A stretch of 64,000 nucleotides of DNA from Caballeronia sp. TF1N1 (GTDB lineage: Bacteria; Pseudomonadota; Gammaproteobacteria; Burkholderiales; Burkholderiaceae), in assembly GCF_022878925.1 (NCBI RefSeq), contig NZ_CP084627.1, forward strand, positions 1,178,001-1,242,000. The letters are read 5' to 3'. A program made the translations under genes and the position numbers. The notes under the pieces are model-generated. The model was not told the origin of the DNA and did not search any database. It worked only from the letters and a program-made list of their open reading frames with translations. How positions within the stretch are numbered: position 1 is the first letter of the stretch; every line of letters starts with the position of its first letter. Of the stretch, positions 21,730 to 31,385 are shown one piece after another.

Positions 21730-22458
21730 TCAGGCGCTTGCCTTTTGCTCGCCGTTGCCGCTTTCCGAATGAGAGGCCGGAAGCCGTTCCTGTAGATCGG
21801 CCGCCGCATCGCCGATATCTTCCTCGATGCCCGCGCGCGCGCCTTCGCCATCCCCGCGCCAAAGCGCATCGACGATATGCCGATGCGCAGCCATCGACTT
21901 GCGCATGTGCGGAATGTCCGGCGCGACGAGGTTCAGAAACGGGCCGATGCGCATCCACAAGTTTTGAATGGTCGCGAGCGTGAGATCGCTTGCGCCGTGC
22001 GTGTAGATCGCGATATGGAATTCGAAGTTGCTGCGCAGATAAGCGGATGCATCGCCGGCTTCGACGTAGGCATCCATCTCGTCGAACACTTCCTGCAATT
22101 GCGTGAGATGCGCGCGGCTCATGCGCGATGCCGCGCGTTTCGCGACCGCGCCTTCCAGCGCGATGCGCACGTCGCGCAATTCCTCCAGCAATTCGAGCGT
22201 CATGGGCGGGACCATCAGCGCGCGTCCGGCGCCGTCGATCAGCGCGCCTTCCGCTTGCAGGCGCGTGAGCGCGGCGCGTACCGGCATGGTGGATGACCCG
22301 ACCGCTTCCGCGACGCTGCGCAGACTCAGCAACTGGCCGGGCGCGAAGCGGCCGGTCATGATTGCCTCGCGCAACTGCGCATAGACGCGCCCGGCCATGG
22401 TTTCGCGCGCCACGACTTCGAGCGCGGGAAGGTCTGTCGTCGTGCGAGTCGCCAACAC
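21730..22458 (-). CDS. GntR-family regulator (FadR/FCD subgroup)
   Basis: A 242-residue transcription factor. The N-terminal winged helix-turn-helix is at about residues 20-85 (VYAQLREAIMTGRFAPGQLLSLRSVAEAVGSS, with SLRSVAEAVG as the core) and an FCD ligand-binding helical domain follows, with metal-type residues in NFEFHIAIY and AHRHIVDAL. It heads the catabolic operon and probably represses it until a pathway metabolite binds. Starts GTG 22458 and TTG 22455 are both possible; GGAGG lies two and five bases upstream respectively. A palindrome at 22486-22504 is a candidate operator. Confidence 0.9.
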   Translation of the reverse strand: MLATRTTTDLPALEVVARETMAGRVYAQLREAIMTGRFAPGQLLSLRSVAEAVGSSTMPVRAALTRLQAEGALIDGAGRALMVPPMTLELLEELRDVRIALEGAVAKRAASRMSRAHLTQLQEVFDEMDAYVEAGDASAYLRSNFEFHIAIYTHGASDLTLATIQNLWMRIGPFLNLVAPDIPHMRKSMAAHRHIVDALWRGDGEGARAGIEEDIGDAAADLQERLPASHSESGNGEQKASA

Positions 22459-22485
22459 AGCCTCCGGTTTGGTTTCGTATGGTTT

Positions 22486-22504
22486 GTGTGACCTGTGATC
22501 ACAC
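22486..22504. promoter_or_regulatory. Candidate GntR operator upstream of the catabolic operon
   Basis: Two overlapping symmetric elements lie about 30 bases before the GntR start: GTGTGA-N7-TCACAC (22486-22504) and the perfect 10-base palindrome TGTGATCACA (22494-22503). FadR-type GntR proteins commonly bind short palindromes of the GT-N-AC kind in their own promoters, so autoregulation is inferred. Confidence 0.5.
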
Positions 22505-22591
22505 TTGCTTGGAATGAAGTGTGGGACGTGATGGGCGTGGAGTCAACGAGGGATTGATAGGTGAAAACGCTGAGGCAGCCTCTAAAAGGAC

Positions 22592-24505
22592 TTATGCCCC
22601 AAACCGCCCCGCCACCGCCTTCTGAATTTCCTCGAACGCCACCGGCTTCACGAGATGATGATCGAACCCGGCTTCCTTCGACCGCTGCCGGTCATGCGCC
22701 TGTCCATAACCCGTCACCGCGATCAAGAGCGCATCCGCGGTCGCCGCACGCTTGCGCATCTCGCAGGCGAGGCGGAATCCATCCATCCCCGGCAAGCCGA
22801 TATCCAGCAGCACGATCTGCGGCGCGAATGTCTCGCTGATCTCGAGCGCAGCCGTCGCATCGTGGACGACGCGCACATCGTAGCCATCGGCTTCGAGCAG
22901 AAGACCCATGGCGGTTGCCGCGTCCACGCTGTCATCCACGAGCAGCACGCGTCTGCCGCCGCTCGATCCCGGCGCGATCTCGACACGCGGAACCGGCACC
23001 GCCTGCGGTCCACACGCAAGCGGCAGCCACACGACGAACTCGCTGCCCTGTTGCAGTCCCGCCGAATACGCTTCGATACGTCCGCCCTGCAACTCGACGA
23101 GCGTCCTCGCAAGCGGCAAGCCGATGCCGAGCCCGCCTTCCGAACGCTCCAGCGATGTCTCCGACTGCACGAACAAATCGAAGATATGCGGCAGCATGTC
23201 GGCGGCAATTCCGATGCCCTTGTCGCGCACGCTGATGCGCGCCTGGTCGCCGACCCGCGCCGTCTCGATCTCGATCTCGCCTTCCTCGACGCTGTACTTC
23301 GATGCATTCGACAAGAGGTTGCCGAACACCTGGGCAATCCGCACGCTATCGCCCACGATGAATAACGGCAAATCGCCGAGCTTGGTCGTGAGCGTATGGC
23401 GTTTTCTCTGCAGTGCGGGCTGCGCGGTTTCGATGGCCGCTTCGATCGCCATTGCCACATCCACCGCTTCCTGACGCAGCGTGATCTTGCCTTGCGTGAT
23501 GCGCGCGACATCGAGCAGATCGTCGACAAGACGGCTCAAATGCCGCACCTGACGGTCGATGATCGTACGCACCGTTTCAAAGTGCTGCGGCGAAGGCTTG
23601 CGCTTCGGATCGAGCAAATCGACGGCGTTTTGTATCGGCGCGAGCGGATTGCGCAACTCGTGCGCGAGCATCGCAAGGAATTCGTCCTTGCGGCGATCGG
23701 CGTCGCGCAGCAGCATTTCCGCGGCCTTGCGCTCGGAAATATCGTTGACGATGCCCGCGATGCGATCCGGCCGGCCGCCCACGCCGCGTATCGGGAACGC
23801 GCGCTCGGCCATCCAGCGCGGACCGCCCTCGGCACCCGTGACGCGAAACTCTTCCTGATAAGGCGTGCCGTGCGCCGCCAGTTCCCGGTACGCCGCGCCC
23901 ACATGTTCGCGGTCGAGCGGATGCACTTCGTTGGACCAGTGATCCACGCCCGGCGTGGGCAGCGGCGCGCCCTGGCGCGTATCCCACAGGCGCGCGTAAG
24001 CGGGGCTCACGTAGAGCAACTGATTGGTCGCGGGATCGAGCATCCAGAAAATGTCGTCGATATTCTCGGCAAGCTGACGAAACCGCTCCTCGCTTTCGCG
24101 CAACGCGCTTTCCGCAAGCCGCACGCGCAACAACGCACGCACATGCGCGATCAGTTCGGCGGGCTCGACGGGTTCGGTGAGGTAACTGTCCGCGCCGCCT
24201 TCCAGACCGCGAATGCGATCGAGGCTATGCACGGCCGCCGCCGATGTCTGCAGCACGAGCGTGCCCGCCGTCTCCGGCGAAGCCTTGATGAGCCTGCACA
24301 CTTCGAGCCCGTTGATATCGGGCAGTTTCACGTCGAGCAAAACGAGGTCGGGCGATTCGGCGCGCACGCGTTCGAGCGCCGTCGTGCCGGTAGCGGCTTC
24401 GATGACATTGAACCCCGCGCGCGACAGAATGCGCGTTTTCGCATAGCGCGCGCCGTCGTTGTCGTCGACGTTGAGGATCAGCACCTCGCTCCAGTCGCTC
24501 GTCAT
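22592..24505 (-). CDS. Hybrid histidine kinase (REC-PAS-HisKA-HATPase-REC)
   Basis: A 637-residue cytosolic kinase with no membrane helices. An N-terminal receiver spans about residues 8-125, with Asp58 in LVLLDVKLPD. The usual Lys before Pro is Glu111 (YLTEPVEP). A PAS domain follows at about 135-260, then HisKA with phospho-acceptor His282 in AHELRNPL. Next is the HATPase (NLLSNASKY, DKGIGI, GLGIGL), and a canonical C-terminal receiver (VLLVDDSVD, IVLLDIGLPG, LVKPVAFEE) ends the chain. Its ATG overlaps the stop of the preceding kinase (ATGA), making it the last gene of the stressosome operon. It probably relays the stressosome signal to a receiver protein. Confidence 0.92.
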   Translation of the reverse strand: MTSDWSEVLILNVDDNDGARYAKTRILSRAGFNVIEAATGTTALERVRAESPDLVLLDVKLPDINGLEVCRLIKASPETAGTLVLQTSAAAVHSLDRIRGLEGGADSYLTEPVEPAELIAHVRALLRVRLAESALRESEERFRQLAENIDDIFWMLDPATNQLLYVSPAYARLWDTRQGAPLPTPGVDHWSNEVHPLDREHVGAAYRELAAHGTPYQEEFRVTGAEGGPRWMAERAFPIRGVGGRPDRIAGIVNDISERKAAEMLLRDADRRKDEFLAMLAHELRNPLAPIQNAVDLLDPKRKPSPQHFETVRTIIDRQVRHLSRLVDDLLDVARITQGKITLRQEAVDVAMAIEAAIETAQPALQRKRHTLTTKLGDLPLFIVGDSVRIAQVFGNLLSNASKYSVEEGEIEIETARVGDQARISVRDKGIGIAADMLPHIFDLFVQSETSLERSEGGLGIGLPLARTLVELQGGRIEAYSAGLQQGSEFVVWLPLACGPQAVPVPRVEIAPGSSGGRRVLLVDDSVDAATAMGLLLEADGYDVRVVHDATAALEISETFAPQIVLLDIGLPGMDGFRLACEMRKRAATADALLIAVTGYGQAHDRQRSKEAGFDHHLVKPVAFEEIQKAVAGRFGA

Positions 24506-26256
24506 GACTCTGTTCCGTAAGCGCGGTGCGCGTCCGTCACCGCCGCGAGCACACTCGCGAGTTCACTGCCCGCCACCGGTTTGCCGATGAACGCCGCCGC
24601 GCCCAACGCTTCCGCCTCGCCACGGTCCTCGGCCTCGCCGAGCACGACGATCGGCAGGTTGCGCATGGCCGCCTGCGCGCGCAACGCGGCGAGCCACGTC
24701 CACGCTTCGACCGGCGCGGGCCGCACGGTCAACAAAAGCGCGGCGGGCGGTGTGCGAGTAAGCGCGCGGGTCGCTTCGTCGAGCGTCGCGGCCGTCATCG
24801 CGCGATACGGCGACTGCCGCAAGGCCGCTTCGCAATCGAGTCGCTCGATCGGATTGCTCGCGACGACGAGCACCATCGGACGAGGGTCGTCGGTGGCGGA
24901 ATGTTCGGTATGCGCGATGTCGTGTTCGTCGCCGTAATAAGCGGGCATGGTCGCGCTGAAGGTCGAGCCGCGCCCCGGTTCGCTCGTGAGCGACACATCG
25001 CCGCCAAGCAGCTTGCAGAGCTTGCGGCACAGCGGCAAACCGAGCCCCGTGCCTTTGACGTATTGCTGCAGCCGGTTCTCGACCTGGCCGAATTCCTCGA
25101 ACACCACGTGCTGATGTTCGGCCGCGATGCCGATGCCCGTGTCCGCGACCGCGAACGTAATCAGCCGCCGCGCTTCGTCGTAACTCGCGCTTACGCGCAC
25201 TTCGCCGCGCTCGGTGAACTTGAGCGCGTTCGACACGAAGTTTCGCAGCACTTGCGCGACCTTCGCTTCGTCGGTGCGAATGGGCGGCAGGCCCACGCAC
25301 GAATCGAAAATCAAGTCGACCGCGCCGCCCGGCGAAAGCGGCCGCAGCATGCCGCGCAGCGCGGAAAAAAGCGTATCGACTTCGAATTCGACGGGGCGCA
25401 CGTCGATCTTGCCCGCTTCGATCTTGGCGAGGTCGAGCAGGTCATCGACCGTTTCGGACAAGTCTTCCGCCGCCCGGCGAATGAAGCGCACCTGCTTTTC
25501 CTGCTCCTCGGTCAGCTCGCCGTCGATACGTTCGAGCAAGAGCTTGGACAACGCACGGATCGACGAAAGCGGCGTGCGGAACTCGTGACTCATGTTCGAC
25601 AAAAAGCGCGATTTGGACTCGTCCGCGCGACGCAGATGATCGGCGCGCGCATCCAGTTCGGCATAAAGCGCCACCACGCCGCGATTCGTATCTTCGAGTT
25701 CGCGCGTGAGATGCGTGAGTTCTTCCTGACGCTCGCGCAAGTCGGCCAGCGCGCCGATCAATTCGCGGTTCTGACGCTGCAATTCAGCGGTGGAATCGAC
25801 GTCCGTGGAAGCGGAGAGCGTGTCGGCGACCGAGCGGGCCGACGTTGCATCGAAGGGCGCGTTGTCCGGCAGCGCCTTCGCGAGCGAGATGGACGTGCCG
25901 CCGTCGGCTTCCTCGGCGATGGCGCATTCGTCCATCAATCGCTGTGCCGCGAGCAGGCCGAGCGCGGCTTGCGAATCGTCGGTTCTGACCGCGCGCAGAC
26001 GTTCGCCCGCACCGGCGCTTGCAAAAAAGCGCACGACGAAGCGGGCCGGCCGCGTGTCCGTATCGACGAGAAAATCGGCGCGTGCGGCCGTGCCCGCGAG
26101 CAGCACCGTGCGCGCCGCTTCCAGCACCGAAGTCGCGATGCGCGTCTGATCCTGCGACGAGAAACCGAGTCCCGCGCTCGCATCGCGCGACTTGCGCCGC
26201 GCCGCGACGATATCGTGCTCGCTTTCGAGCCGCATCGAATAGAGGCGCGTCGTCAT
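24502..26256 (-). CDS. Histidine kinase with degenerate RsbT-like N-domain and pseudo-receiver
   Basis: A 584-residue cytosolic kinase. Residues 1-130 match the RsbT layout in order but lack its key residues: LEAART has Thr50 where RsbT has the N-box Asn, FFASAGAG replaces VDQGPGIP, and LGLLAAQRLMDE parallels LGLGGAKRLCDE. A coiled coil (about 155-210) leads to HisKA (His224 in NMSHEFRTPLSS) and a full HATPase (NFVSNALKFTE, ADTGIGI, GTGLGLPL). The C-terminal 110 residues look like a receiver without its Asp pair or phospho-acceptor. ATG 26256 overlaps the previous stop by 4 bases. The kinase probably senses the stressosome by protein contact. Confidence 0.9.
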   Translation of the reverse strand: MTTRLYSMRLESEHDIVAARRKSRDASAGLGFSSQDQTRIATSVLEAARTVLLAGTAARADFLVDTDTRPARFVVRFFASAGAGERLRAVRTDDSQAALGLLAAQRLMDECAIAEEADGGTSISLAKALPDNAPFDATSARSVADTLSASTDVDSTAELQRQNRELIGALADLRERQEELTHLTRELEDTNRGVVALYAELDARADHLRRADESKSRFLSNMSHEFRTPLSSIRALSKLLLERIDGELTEEQEKQVRFIRRAAEDLSETVDDLLDLAKIEAGKIDVRPVEFEVDTLFSALRGMLRPLSPGGAVDLIFDSCVGLPPIRTDEAKVAQVLRNFVSNALKFTERGEVRVSASYDEARRLITFAVADTGIGIAAEHQHVVFEEFGQVENRLQQYVKGTGLGLPLCRKLCKLLGGDVSLTSEPGRGSTFSATMPAYYGDEHDIAHTEHSATDDPRPMVLVVASNPIERLDCEAALRQSPYRAMTAATLDEATRALTRTPPAALLLTVRPAPVEAWTWLAALRAQAAMRNLPIVVLGEAEDRGEAEALGAAAFIGKPVAGSELASVLAAVTDAHRAYGTES

Positions 26257-27272
26257 GGCGCACGCACGCCCATGCGCGCGACAAAAACCGTGACGTCGTC
26301 GCGGCCGCGCGTGAAATCGCGATACAAAAGCGCCGCGACCAGCGAAGGATGGCGCAGATTCAAACCCGGATAACGCGCGAGATCCCAGCGCGAAGTGAGC
26401 CCGTCCGAATGCAGCACGATGAGCGCGTGCGCGGGATAAGGCGTCGCGAATTGCTGCGCACGCCGCGCCGCGTGCCCGACGATGCCGCTGTGCGAGACCA
26501 GATGCTTGTGCGTGTCGAGCGACCACACACTCGCCGAAATATTGCCGATGCCCGCAAACGCGACCGCCGCCGAGTCACTGGCAAACGGCACGCGCGCGAT
26601 GCCCACTGCCGCGCCGCGAGTGGTGCGCAGCGCGCCGTTGGCCAGTTCCATGATGCGTTCGAGCGATGCGTCGCCGTCCGTGCCCAGAATTTTCGCCGCT
26701 TCGATTGCCGCGAGATTGGCAAGCGGACCGTGCCCGAGGCCATCGGCGACGAGCACGGTGAAGTCGTTCTCGCCCATGTGGCAGGACCAGGCATCGCCGG
26801 AAACGGTTTCGGTTTCGAGCGGCAGATTGACTACGCCATACGTCACGCGCGCCGGTGCCGCATGATTGGCTTCGCCGCTCCAGAACACCGTGCGCAGCAC
26901 CGTGCCTTGTCCCGGCTGGCTCCAGATGTCGAGTTCGTCGGACAGACGTTTGATCGCGCCCATGCCGTTGCCCGGGCTGCCGGCGGTCGTGTAACCGTCC
27001 TCGAAGCACCGGTAAAGATCCGCGATTCCCGGTCCGCTGTCGATGCACAGCACTTCGATGCCGTAACGCCCGCTATCTTCGAGCGGCCGCACCAGCAACT
27101 CGCCGTGCTCGGCATGCTTCAGCAGATTGGTGCTGCATTCCGTCACGACGATCGCCAGTTTTCCCGCGACCGTCTCGTTGAAACCGAGGCCGCGCGCGAG
27201 TTCGCCGATAGCGCGCCGGGCAAAGGCGATCTGACTCGCCTCCGCGATTTCGAAGCGCTGCTGCGCGGCCAT
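26253..27272 (-). CDS. RsbT-like kinase domain fused to a PP2C/SpoIIE phosphatase (RsbX-like)
   Basis: A 339-residue two-domain protein. The N-terminal GHKL domain (to about residue 130) keeps ATP-site residues: Glu45 and Asn49 in TECSTNLLKH, Asp78 in IDSGPGI, and GSPGNGMGAIKRL. The C-terminal PP2C domain keeps metal-binding Asp residues in SGDAWSC, LVADGLGHG, LHSDGLTSRWD and RGRDDVTVFV. In Bacillus, RsbX dephosphorylates RsbR/RsbS to reset the stressosome; here that activity is joined to a kinase-like module. ATG 27272 has AAGGA just upstream; an ATG at 27296 would overlap rsbT by 16 bases and lacks a ribosome binding site. Confidence 0.88.
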   Translation of the reverse strand: MAAQQRFEIAEASQIAFARRAIGELARGLGFNETVAGKLAIVVTECSTNLLKHAEHGELLVRPLEDSGRYGIEVLCIDSGPGIADLYRCFEDGYTTAGSPGNGMGAIKRLSDELDIWSQPGQGTVLRTVFWSGEANHAAPARVTYGVVNLPLETETVSGDAWSCHMGENDFTVLVADGLGHGPLANLAAIEAAKILGTDGDASLERIMELANGALRTTRGAAVGIARVPFASDSAAVAFAGIGNISASVWSLDTHKHLVSHSGIVGHAARRAQQFATPYPAHALIVLHSDGLTSRWDLARYPGLNLRHPSLVAALLYRDFTRGRDDVTVFVARMGVRAP

Positions 27273-27280
27273 CGATTCCT

Positions 27281-27733
27281 TCAAAACGGTTTCCATTTGG
27301 TGATCGAAACGTAAGTGCCCTCGCCCGGCGCCGAGCGAATCTCAAACTCGTCGCACAGGCGCTTTGCGCCGCCCAGACCAAGCCCGAGACCATGACCCGA
27401 GGTGAAGCCGTCGGACAACGCGCGGGCGATATCCGGAATACCGGGCCCCTGATCGACGAATTCGAGTTTGAGGCCACGGCGCCCATTGCGCTCGACGAGT
27501 AAGCAATGCACGTCGCCGCCGCCACCGTAGATGAGCGTGTTGCGTGCCAGCTCGCTTGCGGCCGTCACGAACTTGGTCTGATCGATGAGCGACAAGCCCT
27601 GCGCGACGGCTTTTTCGCGCACGAGCTGACGCAAGCGCACGATCTGCTCGTCGGAGCGGATCGGCAGCGTGATGGGCGACGTCGAGGCGGCTTGCGCGGC
27701 TGATGAAGTGAAGGTCGTCATGGAAGGCGTCAC
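27281..27733 (-). CDS. rsbT: RsbT, stressosome serine/threonine kinase
   Basis: About 150 residues forming a single GHKL kinase domain. The intact N-box is ASELARNTLIYGG (Glu61, Asn65), the G1 box FVDQGPGIPD (Asp94) and the G2 box GHGLGLGLGGAKRL. In known stressosomes RsbT phosphorylates RsbS and RsbR, is then released, and activates a downstream partner. Here RsbU is absent and the next genes encode proteins with related domains. The start may be GTG 27733 or ATG 27721; neither has a strong ribosome binding site. RsbS ends 9 bases upstream. Confidence 0.92.
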   Translation of the reverse strand: MTPSMTTFTSSAAQAASTSPITLPIRSDEQIVRLRQLVREKAVAQGLSLIDQTKFVTAASELARNTLIYGGGGDVHCLLVERNGRRGLKLEFVDQGPGIPDIARALSDGFTSGHGLGLGLGGAKRLCDEFEIRSAPGEGTYVSITKWKPF

Positions 27734-27742
27734 ATGCGGCCG

Positions 27743-28099
27743 TCAGTAGATGCTCTGATTGAGCAGCGCCATGCCCTTCTCGACGTTCAGCGCGGTGCGC
27801 ACGCCCGGCAGCGCGAGCCCGAGTTCGACGAGCGTGATGGCAACCGATGGCTGCATGCCGACGACCACCGTCTGCGCATCGAGCACGCGCGCCATGGCCG
27901 CCGTGTTGCCGATCATGCGGCCGATGAACGAATCGACCACGTCGAGTGAAGAAATGTCGATCAGCACGCCGCGCGCGCCATCTTTCACGATACGGCTCGT
28001 CAGATCGTCCTGCAGCGTGAGCGCAAGACGGTCGTGCATGTCCACTTGAATGGTGACGAGCAGCAGCTTGCCCATCGTGAGAATCGGAATGCGTTCCAT
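27743..28099 (-). CDS. rsbS: RsbS, STAS-domain stressosome scaffold
   Basis: A 118-residue single STAS domain. The phospho-acceptor site is recognisable as the Ser in DVVDSFIGRMIGN (about residue 57), corresponding to the RsbT target in Bacillus RsbS. RsbS co-assembles with RsbR into the icosahedral stressosome core and holds RsbT until phosphorylated. It lies 59 bases after rsbR and 9 bases before rsbT. Confidence 0.92.
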   Translation of the reverse strand: MERIPILTMGKLLLVTIQVDMHDRLALTLQDDLTSRIVKDGARGVLIDISSLDVVDSFIGRMIGNTAAMARVLDAQTVVVGMQPSVAITLVELGLALPGVRTALNVEKGMALLNQSIY

Positions 28100-28158
28100 C
28101 GCTGGCCCCGTTCGGTCTTTCTAATCGCGTTGTGCGTGGCGGTTGTCGACGCGCGCCG

Positions 28159-29091
28159 TCATTCGGCTTGCAGCGCGTCGTACGAACCCGCCGGGCCTGC
28201 TGTGCCGGATGCGCCGCTCTTGCCCCCGCGCTGCGTGTTTTCGACGGAGAGCGACTTGCCGGTGCGCTGCAGCGCGACCACGAACGCCGCCGCGAGCGTC
28301 GCCTTCGTCGTGACGTTGGACAGGTTCACGCCCAAATGCACGATGGTCTGCGCAATCTGCGGCCGAATCCCGCTGATGATGCAGTCCGCGCCCATCAAAC
28401 GCGCCGCCGCCACGGTCTTCAGCAGATGCTGCGCGACGAGCGTATCGACGGTCGGCACGCCCGTGATGTCGATGATCGAGATGGCGGCGCCGGTCTCGAC
28501 GATCTTCTGCAGCAGGTTTTCCATGACCACCTGCGTGCGCGCCGAATCCAGCGTGCCGATGAGCGGCAACGCGAGGATGCCGTCCCACAGTTGCACGACA
28601 GGCGTGGACAGTTCGAGCAACTCTTGTTGCTGACGTACGATCACTTGCTCACGGCTCGCCTGGAACACTTCGGTGGTGTAGAGCCCAAGCGCGTCGAAGA
28701 GCGTGCTGATGGTCCAGGTGAGATCGGCAAGCGTCGCGGGCTCGCCTTCGAGCGATGCGCGCAGACGCGCGAACAGCGGCTGCTTCAGCGAGAACACGAA
28801 CATCGCGGTCTCGACCGGCGAGAAACCCTGACGCGCGCGTTGGCCGGACATATCGGCGAGAAATGCGCGCACTTCCTGCCACGCGCTCGATTCGAAGTCG
28901 ACCGTGTCGCTTGCGCCGAGCGCGGCCACCATGAGTTCGACGAACTGTCCGAACTGATTGCGCAACTCCGCTTCGCCGACCAGTCCGCGCCGCGATGCGA
29001 TTGCATGCTGCTGCGTGATCCACTCGGCGAGCAGTCCCGCCTGGTTGCTGTTGAACAATTGGGCTAGCCGAGTTCCGCCGACCATATCCAT
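28159..29091 (-). CDS. rsbR: RsbR-type stressosome sensor (globin-like N-domain plus STAS)
   Basis: A 310-residue protein. Residues about 1-150 form a helical, non-haem-globin-like sensor domain (LAEWITQQHAIASRRG through FDALGLYTTEVFQ), and residues about 165-280 form a STAS domain with the DITGVPTVDTLVAQHLLKT phospho-site region and IISGIRPQIAQTIVHLG. The C-terminal tail is Gly/Ser-rich. RsbR subunits build the stressosome shell and are thought to sense stress. The start has AGGA eight bases upstream (second possible ATG 29085). It is the first gene of the RsbR-S-T-X-kinase-kinase operon. Confidence 0.92.
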   Translation of the reverse strand: MDMVGGTRLAQLFNSNQAGLLAEWITQQHAIASRRGLVGEAELRNQFGQFVELMVAALGASDTVDFESSAWQEVRAFLADMSGQRARQGFSPVETAMFVFSLKQPLFARLRASLEGEPATLADLTWTISTLFDALGLYTTEVFQASREQVIVRQQQELLELSTPVVQLWDGILALPLIGTLDSARTQVVMENLLQKIVETGAAISIIDITGVPTVDTLVAQHLLKTVAAARLMGADCIISGIRPQIAQTIVHLGVNLSNVTTKATLAAAFVVALQRTGKSLSVENTQRGGKSGASGTAGPAGSYDALQAE

Positions 29092-29403
29092 GCCGAGATT
29101 CCTGTGCGAATGTTTTTATGCGCGCGTCCGTAGGATGACTGGCGAGCCGCGCCGGGCGAAAGCGCTTTTGCGCTGCAACGATCGGCCACGCAGAACTGCG
29201 AATGACCGAAAGCAACGCAAAGGCGCTCGGAATGTAGCACGTCGTCTCAAAAATCGACAGTCTGCGAAGCCTTTTGGCGCGTGCCTTCCGCGCATTTTCG
29301 ATAGCTCGATAAAGCGATTCGCAAGCGATCGGCAATTGCTTCCGGTCGTTCGATCCGGGATGGACAGAAGCCGGTCAAAACTATCCCATGCAATCAAACC
29401 ATG
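29092..29403. other. Non-coding gap upstream of the stressosome operon
   Basis: 312 bases without a credible gene between rsbR (leftward) and the orphan receiver gene (also leftward). It must hold the rsbR promoter unless transcription reads through from the receiver gene. I found no convincing -35/-10 pair; TACATT on the minus strand at about 29232-29237 is a weak -10 candidate. Open frames here have atypical composition. Confidence 0.5.
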
Positions 29404-29751
29404 TCAGCGTGTCAGCAGGAACAGTTCCAGCGCCTGGAGGCTGATGGGCTTGAGGAGATAACCGTCGAATTCCGTTTCGCCGCTGCCATCGACGAAATCG
29501 GAGTGACCCGTCATTGCGATGATGCGGGCGTCGCGCGAAAGACCGGCGGCGCGAATCCGGCTGCAGATGTCGCGGCCGTCGGCGTCGGGCAGGGAAATGT
29601 CGAGAAAGATGCGGTCGAAACGTGTGTGACTCGTGAGCGCCAGACAACCGGCGCCGTCGTACGCAATGGCAGCGGTGTGCCCGAGACTCGTCGCGATATC
29701 GGCGAGAGTCTCGATGCAGGCTTCATTATCGTCGACGAGCAACAGGTTCAT
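29404..29751 (-). CDS. Orphan single-domain response regulator (CheY-like)
   Basis: A 115-residue receiver with the acidic pair in LLLVDDNEA, phospho-acceptor Asp in RIFLDISLPDADG, Thr in AMTGHSD and Lys in YLLKPISLQ. No output domain. The ATG at 29751 begins right at the receiver fold, with GGAG nine bases upstream; the longer in-frame extension to 30024 runs through the permease promoter region and is rejected. It sits 312 bases upstream of rsbR on the same strand and is a plausible phosphorylation target of the two hybrid kinases there. Confidence 0.85.
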   Translation of the reverse strand: MNLLLVDDNEACIETLADIATSLGHTAAIAYDGAGCLALTSHTRFDRIFLDISLPDADGRDICSRIRAAGLSRDARIIAMTGHSDFVDGSGETEFDGYLLKPISLQALELFLLTR

Positions 29752-30026
29752 CGTGACTGGCTCCGGTACGACCGAAACGATGCGCCAGCGGCAAGCAAAA
29801 AAACTCCAAGCAACCCATGACGCCGCGCGCGAGAAAGAGTGTAGTCCATCCACTCTGGCGCCAGCACATTCGTACCGAAAGCGGCGAAGGTTTGGCCGTT
29901 CGCCGCTTGAGTCGGCGCGTCGATGCGCCATTGCATGCCATCTATAGCGGCGCGAATATTTTTCCAGGAGCGTGCCGGTGCAATACTCGCCCGGAGCAGG
30001 ACAACCATGAAACTTGCGGAGCACAC

Positions 30027-31385
30027 ATGGCCCACACGATCCATCCCGTCGATGAAGTGCTGCCTTTGCCCGCCATGCTTGCAGTGGGCATACAGCACGT
30101 GCTCGTGATGTATGCGGGCGCGATTGCGGTGCCGCTCATCATTGGCGCGGCGCTCAAGCTGCCGAAGGATCAGGTCGCGTTTCTCATCAGCTCGGACCTC
30201 TTCGCGTGCGGGATCGTGACGTTGGTGCAGTGCATCGGCGTATGGAAATTCGGCATTCGCTTGCCGGTCATCATGGGCGTGAGTTTCGCGCCGGTCGGGC
30301 CGATGGTCGCCATGGCTTCGTCGGGCGCGGGGCTCACCGCCATCTTCGGCGCGACCATCGCGGCGGGCGTGTTCGCCATACTCATCGCGCCATTTTTCGG
30401 GCGGCTGATGCGCTTCTTTCCGCCTATCGTCACGGGCACGATCATCCTGACCATAGGCATGACGCTCTTTCCGGTGGCGATCAACTGGGCGGGCGGCGGG
30501 CGCGGCGCGCCTAATTTCGGCGATCCGAAGAACTTGATGATCGCGGGCATCGTGCTGCTGGCGATTCTCGTCATCAACAAGTATCTGCGCGGCTTTCTCG
30601 CGAATATCTCCGTGCTGCTCGGCATGGCGATTGGCTTCGCGGTCGCGTTGGCGCTCGGACTCGTCGATGTCTCGGGCACCGCTCAAGCGGCATGGTTTTC
30701 TCCGGTGCGGCCGTTCGCTTTCGGCTGGCCGACTTTCGATATCGCGGCGATTGCGTCGCTGTGTCTCGTGATGGTCGTCATCATGGTGGAGTCGCTCGGC
30801 ATGTTTCTCGCGCTGGGCGATCTCGCGGGGCGGCCGGTATCGCGCGGCGACGCGACGCGTGGCTTACGCACCGATGGCCTCGGCACGGTGATCGGCGGCA
30901 TCTTCAATACGTTTCCGCATAGCTCGTTTTCGCAGAACATCGGACTCGTCGGGATTACGGGCGTGAAGAGCCGCTGGGTGGTCGCGGTATCGGGCGTGAT
31001 CCTGATATTGCTCGGGCTCTTGCCGAAGCTGTCGAATTTGATCGCATCGATTCCCGTGGTCGTGTTGGGCGGCGCGGGAATCGCGATGTTCGGCATGGTC
31101 GCGGCCACGGGCGTGAAGATACTCGGCAAGGTCGATTACGAGAGCAAGAACAACTTGCTGATCATCGCGATCAGTCTGGGCGTGGGCGTGATTCCGCTCG
31201 TCGCGCCGACGTTCTTTGCGCACATGCCGGCGTGGGCCGGGCCGCTGACGCACAGCGGCATCACGCTTGCTGCCGTGTTTGCGATTCTGCTCAATGCGTT
31301 CTTCAATCGCGGCAGAGCGGCGGCGGATGTCGAGCGCGAGATTGCGGGGGAAATGCCGTTGAGTTTGAGGCAGGGGGAGGAGTGA
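30027..31385 (+). CDS. Xanthine/uracil/urate permease, NCS2 (NAT) family
   Basis: A 452-residue membrane protein with about 14 hydrophobic segments. It shows NCS2 hallmarks: QHVLVMYAGAIAVPLIIG at the start, PVIMGVSFAPVGPM, the VESLGMFLALGDL segment, and the signature QNIGLVGITGVKSRWV around residue 310. Members import purine bases or uric acid with protons or sodium; the GVKSR context fits the xanthine/urate branch, but the substrate is inferred. ATG 30027 follows GCGGAG. The 275 bases upstream, shared with the divergent receiver gene, hold its promoter. Confidence 0.9.
   Translation: MAHTIHPVDEVLPLPAMLAVGIQHVLVMYAGAIAVPLIIGAALKLPKDQVAFLISSDLFACGIVTLVQCIGVWKFGIRLPVIMGVSFAPVGPMVAMASSGAGLTAIFGATIAAGVFAILIAPFFGRLMRFFPPIVTGTIILTIGMTLFPVAINWAGGGRGAPNFGDPKNLMIAGIVLLAILVINKYLRGFLANISVLLGMAIGFAVALALGLVDVSGTAQAAWFSPVRPFAFGWPTFDIAAIASLCLVMVVIMVESLGMFLALGDLAGRPVSRGDATRGLRTDGLGTVIGGIFNTFPHSSFSQNIGLVGITGVKSRWVVAVSGVILILLGLLPKLSNLIASIPVVVLGGAGIAMFGMVAATGVKILGKVDYESKNNLLIIAISLGVGVIPLVAPTFFAHMPAWAGPLTHSGITLAAVFAILLNAFFNRGRAAADVEREIAGEMPLSLRQGEE

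Follow-up and report, generated by a model that had tools for sequence, protein, structure and literature searches.

The window analyzed here, a 64,000-nucleotide stretch of the genome of Caballeronia sp. TF1N1 (contig NZ_CP084627.1, positions 1,178,001 to 1,242,000), carries six minus-strand genes at positions 22592-29091, in the order rsbR, rsbS, rsbT, X, HK1, HK2, that encode a stressosome core, a phosphatase (X) and two histidine kinases (HK1 and HK2). HK1 begins with a domain of the RsbT family that has lost its ATP site. The six genes are read here, with the balance tipping somewhat in favor of this interpretation, as a stressosome-to-phosphorelay module, with the RsbT-family domain of HK1 providing the coupling to the core. 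Open reading frames and Pfam matches define the genes and the parts of HK1 as follows, with all six genes at the places and on the strand given in a preliminary description of the sequence (E, expectation value; REC, receiver domain).

28159..29091, minus strand: rsbR, 310 amino acids; RsbRD_N sensor domain (E 4.7e-29) and STAS domain (E 6.8e-14)
27743..28099, minus strand: rsbS, 118 amino acids; lone STAS domain, matching the RsbS chain 6jhk_A (E 1.4e-30)
27281..27733, minus strand: rsbT, 150 amino acids, GTG start as called; serine/threonine switch kinase; HATPase_c (E 3.2e-10) and HATPase_c_2 (E 2.1e-7)
26253..27296, minus strand: X; HATPase_c_2 (E 6e-11) and SpoIIE (E 4.2e-7)
24502..26256, minus strand: HK1, whole; HisKA, HATPase_c and a receiver match below the cut-off
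25837..26256, minus strand: HK1 residues 1-140; RsbT-family domain, ATP site lost (pseudo-RsbT)
25642..25836, minus strand: HK1 residues 141-205; linker with the conserved TNRGVVALYAELD motif
24502..25641, minus strand: HK1 residues 206-584; HisKA (His225; E 1.6e-19), HATPase_c (E 2.4e-26) and degenerate REC (E 0.0027, below the cut-off)
22592..24505, minus strand: HK2; REC-PAS-HisKA-HATPase_c-REC, with Response_reg (E 1.6e-43) in two stretches

The ∼210 N-terminal residues of the window HK1 received no Pfam name above the cut-off. By sequence and fold comparison, residues 1 to 140 belong with RsbT, RsbW and SpoIIAB, and their predicted fold is confident; in the fold list, SiaB (11.4) and LvrC, a response regulator of Leptospira (11.0), are among the entries that rank after these three and ahead of the first histidine kinase (8.4). 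The same comparisons led us to reject the idea that the HK1 N terminus is an ordinary sensor domain or a stray additional kinase ATPase. When the domains were scanned alone, HATPase_c_2 was found in 38 of 42 HK1 domain members. For residue comparisons, 110 loci were used, namely, 13 Caballeronia orthologues of the window HK1 and 97 others, after the duplicates L120, L125, L126 and L142 were dropped; L038 to L040 among the 97 come from genomes of the same genus with another HK1 type. The ATP site (Glu46, Asn50 and the G1 motif Asp-x-Gly-x-Gly) is intact in 131/131 RsbT rows, except for one gapped Glu, in the 118 X rows but for single residues, and in 96 of the 97 HK1 domains from the other loci (the exception is L055). 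Both Asn50 and the G1 Asp are lost in the window and in 13/13 Caballeronia orthologues, which keep Glu46. In SpoIIAB, Mg is chelated by Asn50, Glu46 serves as the base in catalysis, and Arg20 is located beside the site that binds the STAS protein or sigma factor (PMC10345196). Among the HK1 domains, Arg20 and Arg39 are invariant (110/110 each, the latter being Lys in most RsbT), and Arg49 (107/110) and Arg24 (104/110) are nearly so; RsbT, unlike X, typically has Arg24, Thr38 and Arg49. Because RsbT-typical residues are kept while ATP binding is lost, a role in docking is the best explanation for the HK1 domain.

In a tree of 89 domains, built by a quick method from few columns, a branch separates each of the three groups, RsbT, X and HK1, from the remaining domains (support of 71, 99 and 98, respectively), with the Caballeronia HK1 domain on a long branch (1.34). 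Across 14 Caballeronia sequences, the median ratio of nonsynonymous to synonymous substitution rates (dN/dS) is 0.29 for the HK1 RsbT-type domain, close to the values for the PP2C part of X (0.30) and the HK1 receiver (0.29), and 0.07 for both RsbT and the HK1 kinase core. Judging by these ratios, the HK1 domain is relaxed yet constrained in Caballeronia.

Downstream of this domain, the linker of HK1 is mostly contained in one long predicted helix (152-241), and the kinase motifs, that is, the HisKA histidine and the ATPase boxes, are intact. In the alignment, the HK1 receiver lacks the phospho-acceptor Asp, so that HK1 is hybrid only by descent here. HK2, with HisKA and HATPase_c boxes identified by Pfam and the Asp kept in both receivers, is a hybrid histidine kinase; the preliminary description had called both kinases hybrid. 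Candidate acceptors of the HK1 phosphate are the two receivers of HK2 or a further protein encoded upstream of rsbR:

29407..29751, minus strand: single-domain CheY-like receiver; Response_reg (E 6e-17)

Orthologues of this receiver (≥73% identity) lie 3.06 to 3.15 kb upstream of HK1 in 10 of the 28 genus genomes with full-length HK1, the window included. The receiver was also observed in one genome without an HK1 match (G100) and in another beside a broken HK1 (G614). A CheY-like gene likewise adjoins the stressosome operon in Vibrio brasiliensis (PMC4976288).

The first three genes encode the proteins of an RsbR-RsbS-RsbT (RST) module. RsbR, with its sensor and STAS domains, matches RsbR chains of solved stressosomes (7o0i_B, E 6.3e-33; 9o3o_A, E 1.7e-30), and RsbT has intact ATP-site motifs of the GHKL kinase type in the alignment. 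Thr180 and Thr217 of RsbR, as well as Ser57 of the lone-STAS protein RsbS, where the serine is kept, align with the known phospho-site positions of these proteins. Stressosome phospho-sites are given as Thr205/Thr209 and Ser56 in PMC9237128. The fourth protein, X, consists of an RsbT-type ATPase (residues ∼5-140) and an RsbX/SpoIIE-type PP2C phosphatase (∼145-347), a fusion that is also present in relatives. The preliminary description, which had termed it RsbX-like, was right about the phosphatase domain; because HATPase_c_2 and SpoIIE occur in one protein, X is a fusion and not a plain, single-domain RsbX feedback phosphatase.

The genes overlap by 16 bases between rsbT and X and by 4 bases (ATGA) at both the X/HK1 and HK1/HK2 junctions, the last two as described previously, and are separated by gaps of 59 bases between rsbR and rsbS and 9 bases between rsbS and rsbT. 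A consensus scan of positions 22300-30100 found a single promoter-like site on the sense strand, upstream of rsbR (29407-29380), and none within rsbR-HK2. Five terminator-like sites were found in the same region, compared with a shuffle mean of 7.9; those on the sense strand lie upstream of rsbR, within X and within HK2, and none is at a junction. On this weak test, a split of the operon by a promoter and terminator was rejected, including one between rsbT/X and the kinases, an arrangement that the preliminary description had named as a refutation of its reading. Chance grouping of the six genes is excluded because their order is kept across 11 phyla (see below).

The host genome (7.07 Mb, nine contigs) was searched for the components through which RsbT acts in Bacillus. 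RsbU_N was not detected anywhere in the genome (the Bacillus subtilis control was positive), and X is the only SpoIIE-type phosphatase. STAS domains occur in RsbR, RsbS and three other frames (595, 580 and 108 amino acids), and among frames of <400 amino acids, only X and RsbT contain HATPase_c_2 above the cut-off. Given these results, the RsbU-RsbV-RsbW route is missing; the absence of RsbU and RsbV/RsbW noted earlier for the window thus extends to the whole genome, sigma factors lying outside the search. Together with the fixed-order co-occurrence of rsbRST and the kinases, the lack of RsbU_N and of a second SpoIIE phosphatase agrees with the earlier proposal that the stressosome is tied to histidine kinases and not to an RsbU partner switch. 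The genome also encodes a second RsbRD_N protein (L082:4423-5649; C2, ∼498.4-499.6 kb), in which RsbRD_N is fused to HisKA-HATPase_c, that is, a kinase bearing a stressosome sensor domain.

Kinases with the RsbT-family domain, here called tagged, are widespread. Within the family, an RsbS match was found in 55 of 200 genomes; 52 stretches were taken, and after removal of 4 that were truncated or did not contain the operon, 48 operons remained, 33 of which contain a tagged HK1. In 8 of the 33, the tag is on a different, HK2-like kinase type with no second kinase directly after it; two types of kinase have thus acquired the combination with the tag. These HK2-like kinases (L038, L039, L040, L042, L043, L044, L045 and L050, the first three from the genus of the window) have a shorter linker. 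Another 7 of the 48 operons combine a single-domain X with a kinase of another kind. Two of these kinases were scanned and are RsbU_N-PAS-HisKA_3 proteins, and each of the remaining five matches one of these two along its entire length (70-94% identity). At least some of these seven loci (L046, L047, L051, L052, L083, L088 and L089) have an additional RsbT-like gene on the other strand. In the genus, a full-length HK1 of the window type is present in 28 of 58 genomes, without inner stops.

Beyond the family, one genome from each GTDB species was scanned with motifs; this gave 315 relatives, and the 80 best of them were retained. The selection was made with motifs of HK1 domains that have an intact ATP site and therefore gives no estimate of how frequently the ATP site is lost or what share of stressosomes is tagged. 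The strict one-strand order RsbRD_N-STAS-STAS-T-T-PP2C-T-kinase (T, RsbT-type domain) is present in 65 of these 80 loci, from 11 phyla by record title; of the remaining 15, 12 are truncated at the end of a contig or have an X frame that is broken, and 3 have no RST genes nearby. The possibility that the operon is a local oddity was accordingly rejected, and the combination is not rare but spans many phyla. The wide co-occurrence of rsbRST and kinases in fixed order also answers the concern, raised with that description, that relatives might not share the arrangement. In a fairer sample of 398 phylum genomes, 29 had a domain-profile match at E ≤1e-20, and in 10 of these, one match fell within a frame of ≥400 amino acids, long enough for a candidate kinase.

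Tagged kinases occur on named plasmid records of Deinococcus radiodurans (MP1), Sphingomonas aliaeris and Phaeobacter piscinae, and several genera have the module or its kin on plasmids and secondary replicons (L120-L124). With the domain-plus-linker region of a family HK1 as the query, at least 7959 protein clusters (7998 scored) matched at E ≤1e-10. The NCBI names of the 120 clusters listed are mostly “ATP-binding protein,” although P0007 (Pararobbsia alpina) bears the name “serine/threonine-protein kinase RsbT,” which shows that one annotation had seen the likeness. A separate curiosity is P0074, a protein of 1034 amino acids with HATPase_c_2, HisKA, HATPase_c, REC and a SpoIIE phosphatase, i.e., a tagged kinase and a phosphatase in one chain.

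These features suggest a mechanism in which RsbR and RsbS would build the sensing core, to be phosphorylated by RsbT and dephosphorylated by X, as expected from their families. The N-terminal domain of HK1 would dock at the site used by RsbT, the STAS face of RsbS/RsbR, so that stress-driven phosphorylation of the core would affect the docking of both RsbT and HK1 at once. This shift in docking could then travel along the conserved coiled linker to HisKA and switch HK1 autophosphorylation, with phosphate passing from HK1 to the HK2 receivers or, in some species, to the upstream CheY-like protein; the signal would thus run from the stressosome to the kinase. In Caballeronia, the HK1 domain would act as a pseudokinase that has kept docking and lost ATP binding. 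For RsbT itself, retention by RsbS and release upon core phosphorylation have been proposed (PMC9237128), and RsbU, whose linker RsbT is reported to rigidify (PMC12143880), is an earlier example of a protein controlled by way of a coiled linker. In the preliminary description, free RsbT acted on the kinases; because HK1 has an RsbT-type domain of its own, the wiring is likely to differ from that picture. More tentatively, with the odds falling a little short of even, the operon would represent a pan-bacterial class of stressosomes in which the kinase docks by its own RsbT-family domain, release of RsbT and switching of the kinase are one event, and a Ser/Thr switch is converted into a His-Asp phosphorelay without RsbU, the Caballeronia domain being a pure docking pseudokinase.

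Several observations weigh against this docking model. The branch that sets RsbT apart in the tree has a support of only 71, and the HK1 domain evolves faster than RsbT (dN/dS of 0.29 versus 0.07). Ser45, on the partner side of SpoIIAB, is Leu in 13/13 Caballeronia orthologues, and the partner-side positions 39 and 49 (PMC10345196) hold other residues in this HK1 family, so that only Arg20 matches SpoIIAB itself. Furthermore, a short untagged HK1 occurs in 8 of the 48 family operons, which are otherwise similar; HK2 comes next in 7 of them, and the stretch with the eighth ends early. An untagged HK1 orthologue is also found in an operon on a plasmid of Xanthomonas vasicola; the tag is therefore not indispensable. 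Conversely, three cyanobacterial loci (L182, L190 and L194) have an RsbT-tagged kinase without rsbRST nearby.

The untagged kinases bear on one alternative, which appears unlikely but is the strongest of those considered: RsbT released from the core could act in trans on the coiled linker of HK1, as on RsbU, with the HK1 domain serving only as a partner or brake in a pairing of RsbT with pseudo-RsbT. The TNRGVVALYAELD motif is kept, with small changes, in two HK1 relatives that lack the domain, which leaves room for free RsbT to act directly on the linker, and the effect of RsbT on the RsbU linker (PMC12143880) points in the same direction. However, RsbU_N was found in 0 of 48 HK1 proteins, and the residue of SpoIIAB that corresponds to the invariant Arg20 is next to the site at which SpoIIAB binds its STAS protein or sigma factor. 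Somewhat less probable still, the domain could be an active Ser/Thr kinase of STAS proteins in most lineages and a decaying relic without a role in Caballeronia, where HK1 would be driven only via the linker or HK2. The intact ATP sites in 96 of the 97 other loci, the fast evolution relative to RsbT and the long branch would fit this reading, whereas a dN/dS near 0.29, the uninterrupted HK1 frames in 28 of 58 genus genomes, the invariant RsbT-typical residues and the confident predicted fold argue against it. A reversed flow, in which the kinases would feed two-component input into the stressosome and HK1 would compete with RsbT for docking and set its release, is improbable: the receiver and PAS domain at the front of HK2 could provide such input, and a degenerate competitor would suit a decoy role, but the genome search turned up no RsbU-type outlet for RsbT, and the HK1 kinase motifs are intact. 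Finally, the notion that the kinases are co-transcribed neighbors with no functional tie to the stressosome is scarcely credible given the strict order in 65/80 loci of 11 phyla and the RsbT-family domain inside HK1.

The docking model addresses a question that is open in print, namely, the signal output of stressosomes without RsbU and SigB (PMC9237108). That stressosome operons can include two-component genes has long been known, and a stressosome-to-two-component output has already been proposed for Vibrio (PMC9237108; PMC10014275). An RsbT-family domain within the kinase would be a concrete, testable answer for a widespread stressosome class, suggesting a route from stress sensing straight into phosphorelay in many bacteria, and the Caballeronia pseudokinase would be a natural separation of docking from catalysis. 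No mention of RsbT-domain-tagged kinases was found in searches of an open-access literature collection, although subscription surveys, including a 2005 stressosome survey, may already note them.

The RsbR-S-T core corresponds to that of Bacillus and Listeria in the homology of RsbR and RsbS to solved chains, the phospho-site positions and the Pfam assignment of RsbT; unlike in the RsbU-V-W-SigB pathway of these bacteria, RsbU_N and a second SpoIIE phosphatase are absent genome-wide, and a kinase pair is present instead. The HK1 N-terminal domain shares with SpoIIAB/RsbW the fold, Arg20 and Glu46 and differs in lacking the Mg-binding Asn50 and the G1 Asp in the window and in being fused to a histidine kinase. 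The closest described system is the RSTX and D1/D2 two-component module of Vibrio vulnificus (Heinz 2022, PMC9237108; Cutugno 2023, PMC10014275), which likewise consists of a minimal RST and phosphatase with downstream sensor kinase genes and no RsbU or SigB. There, the sensor of RsbR is a globin and the phosphatase consists of a single domain, whereas here RsbR is of the RsbRD_N type and X is an ATPase-PP2C fusion; the kinase here has an RsbT-type domain, the Vibrio kinase D1 being compared by its description only. How the signal gets to the Vibrio kinase was left unexplained in PMC9237108, according to which RsbU_N is missing from most downstream proteins and no binding of RsbT to D1 was found. 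In other stressosome operons, RsbU_N-histidine kinases are, as here, the presumed output (PMC9237108; PMC12143880); those kinases bear the target domain of RsbT, whereas HK1 bears the fold of RsbT itself.
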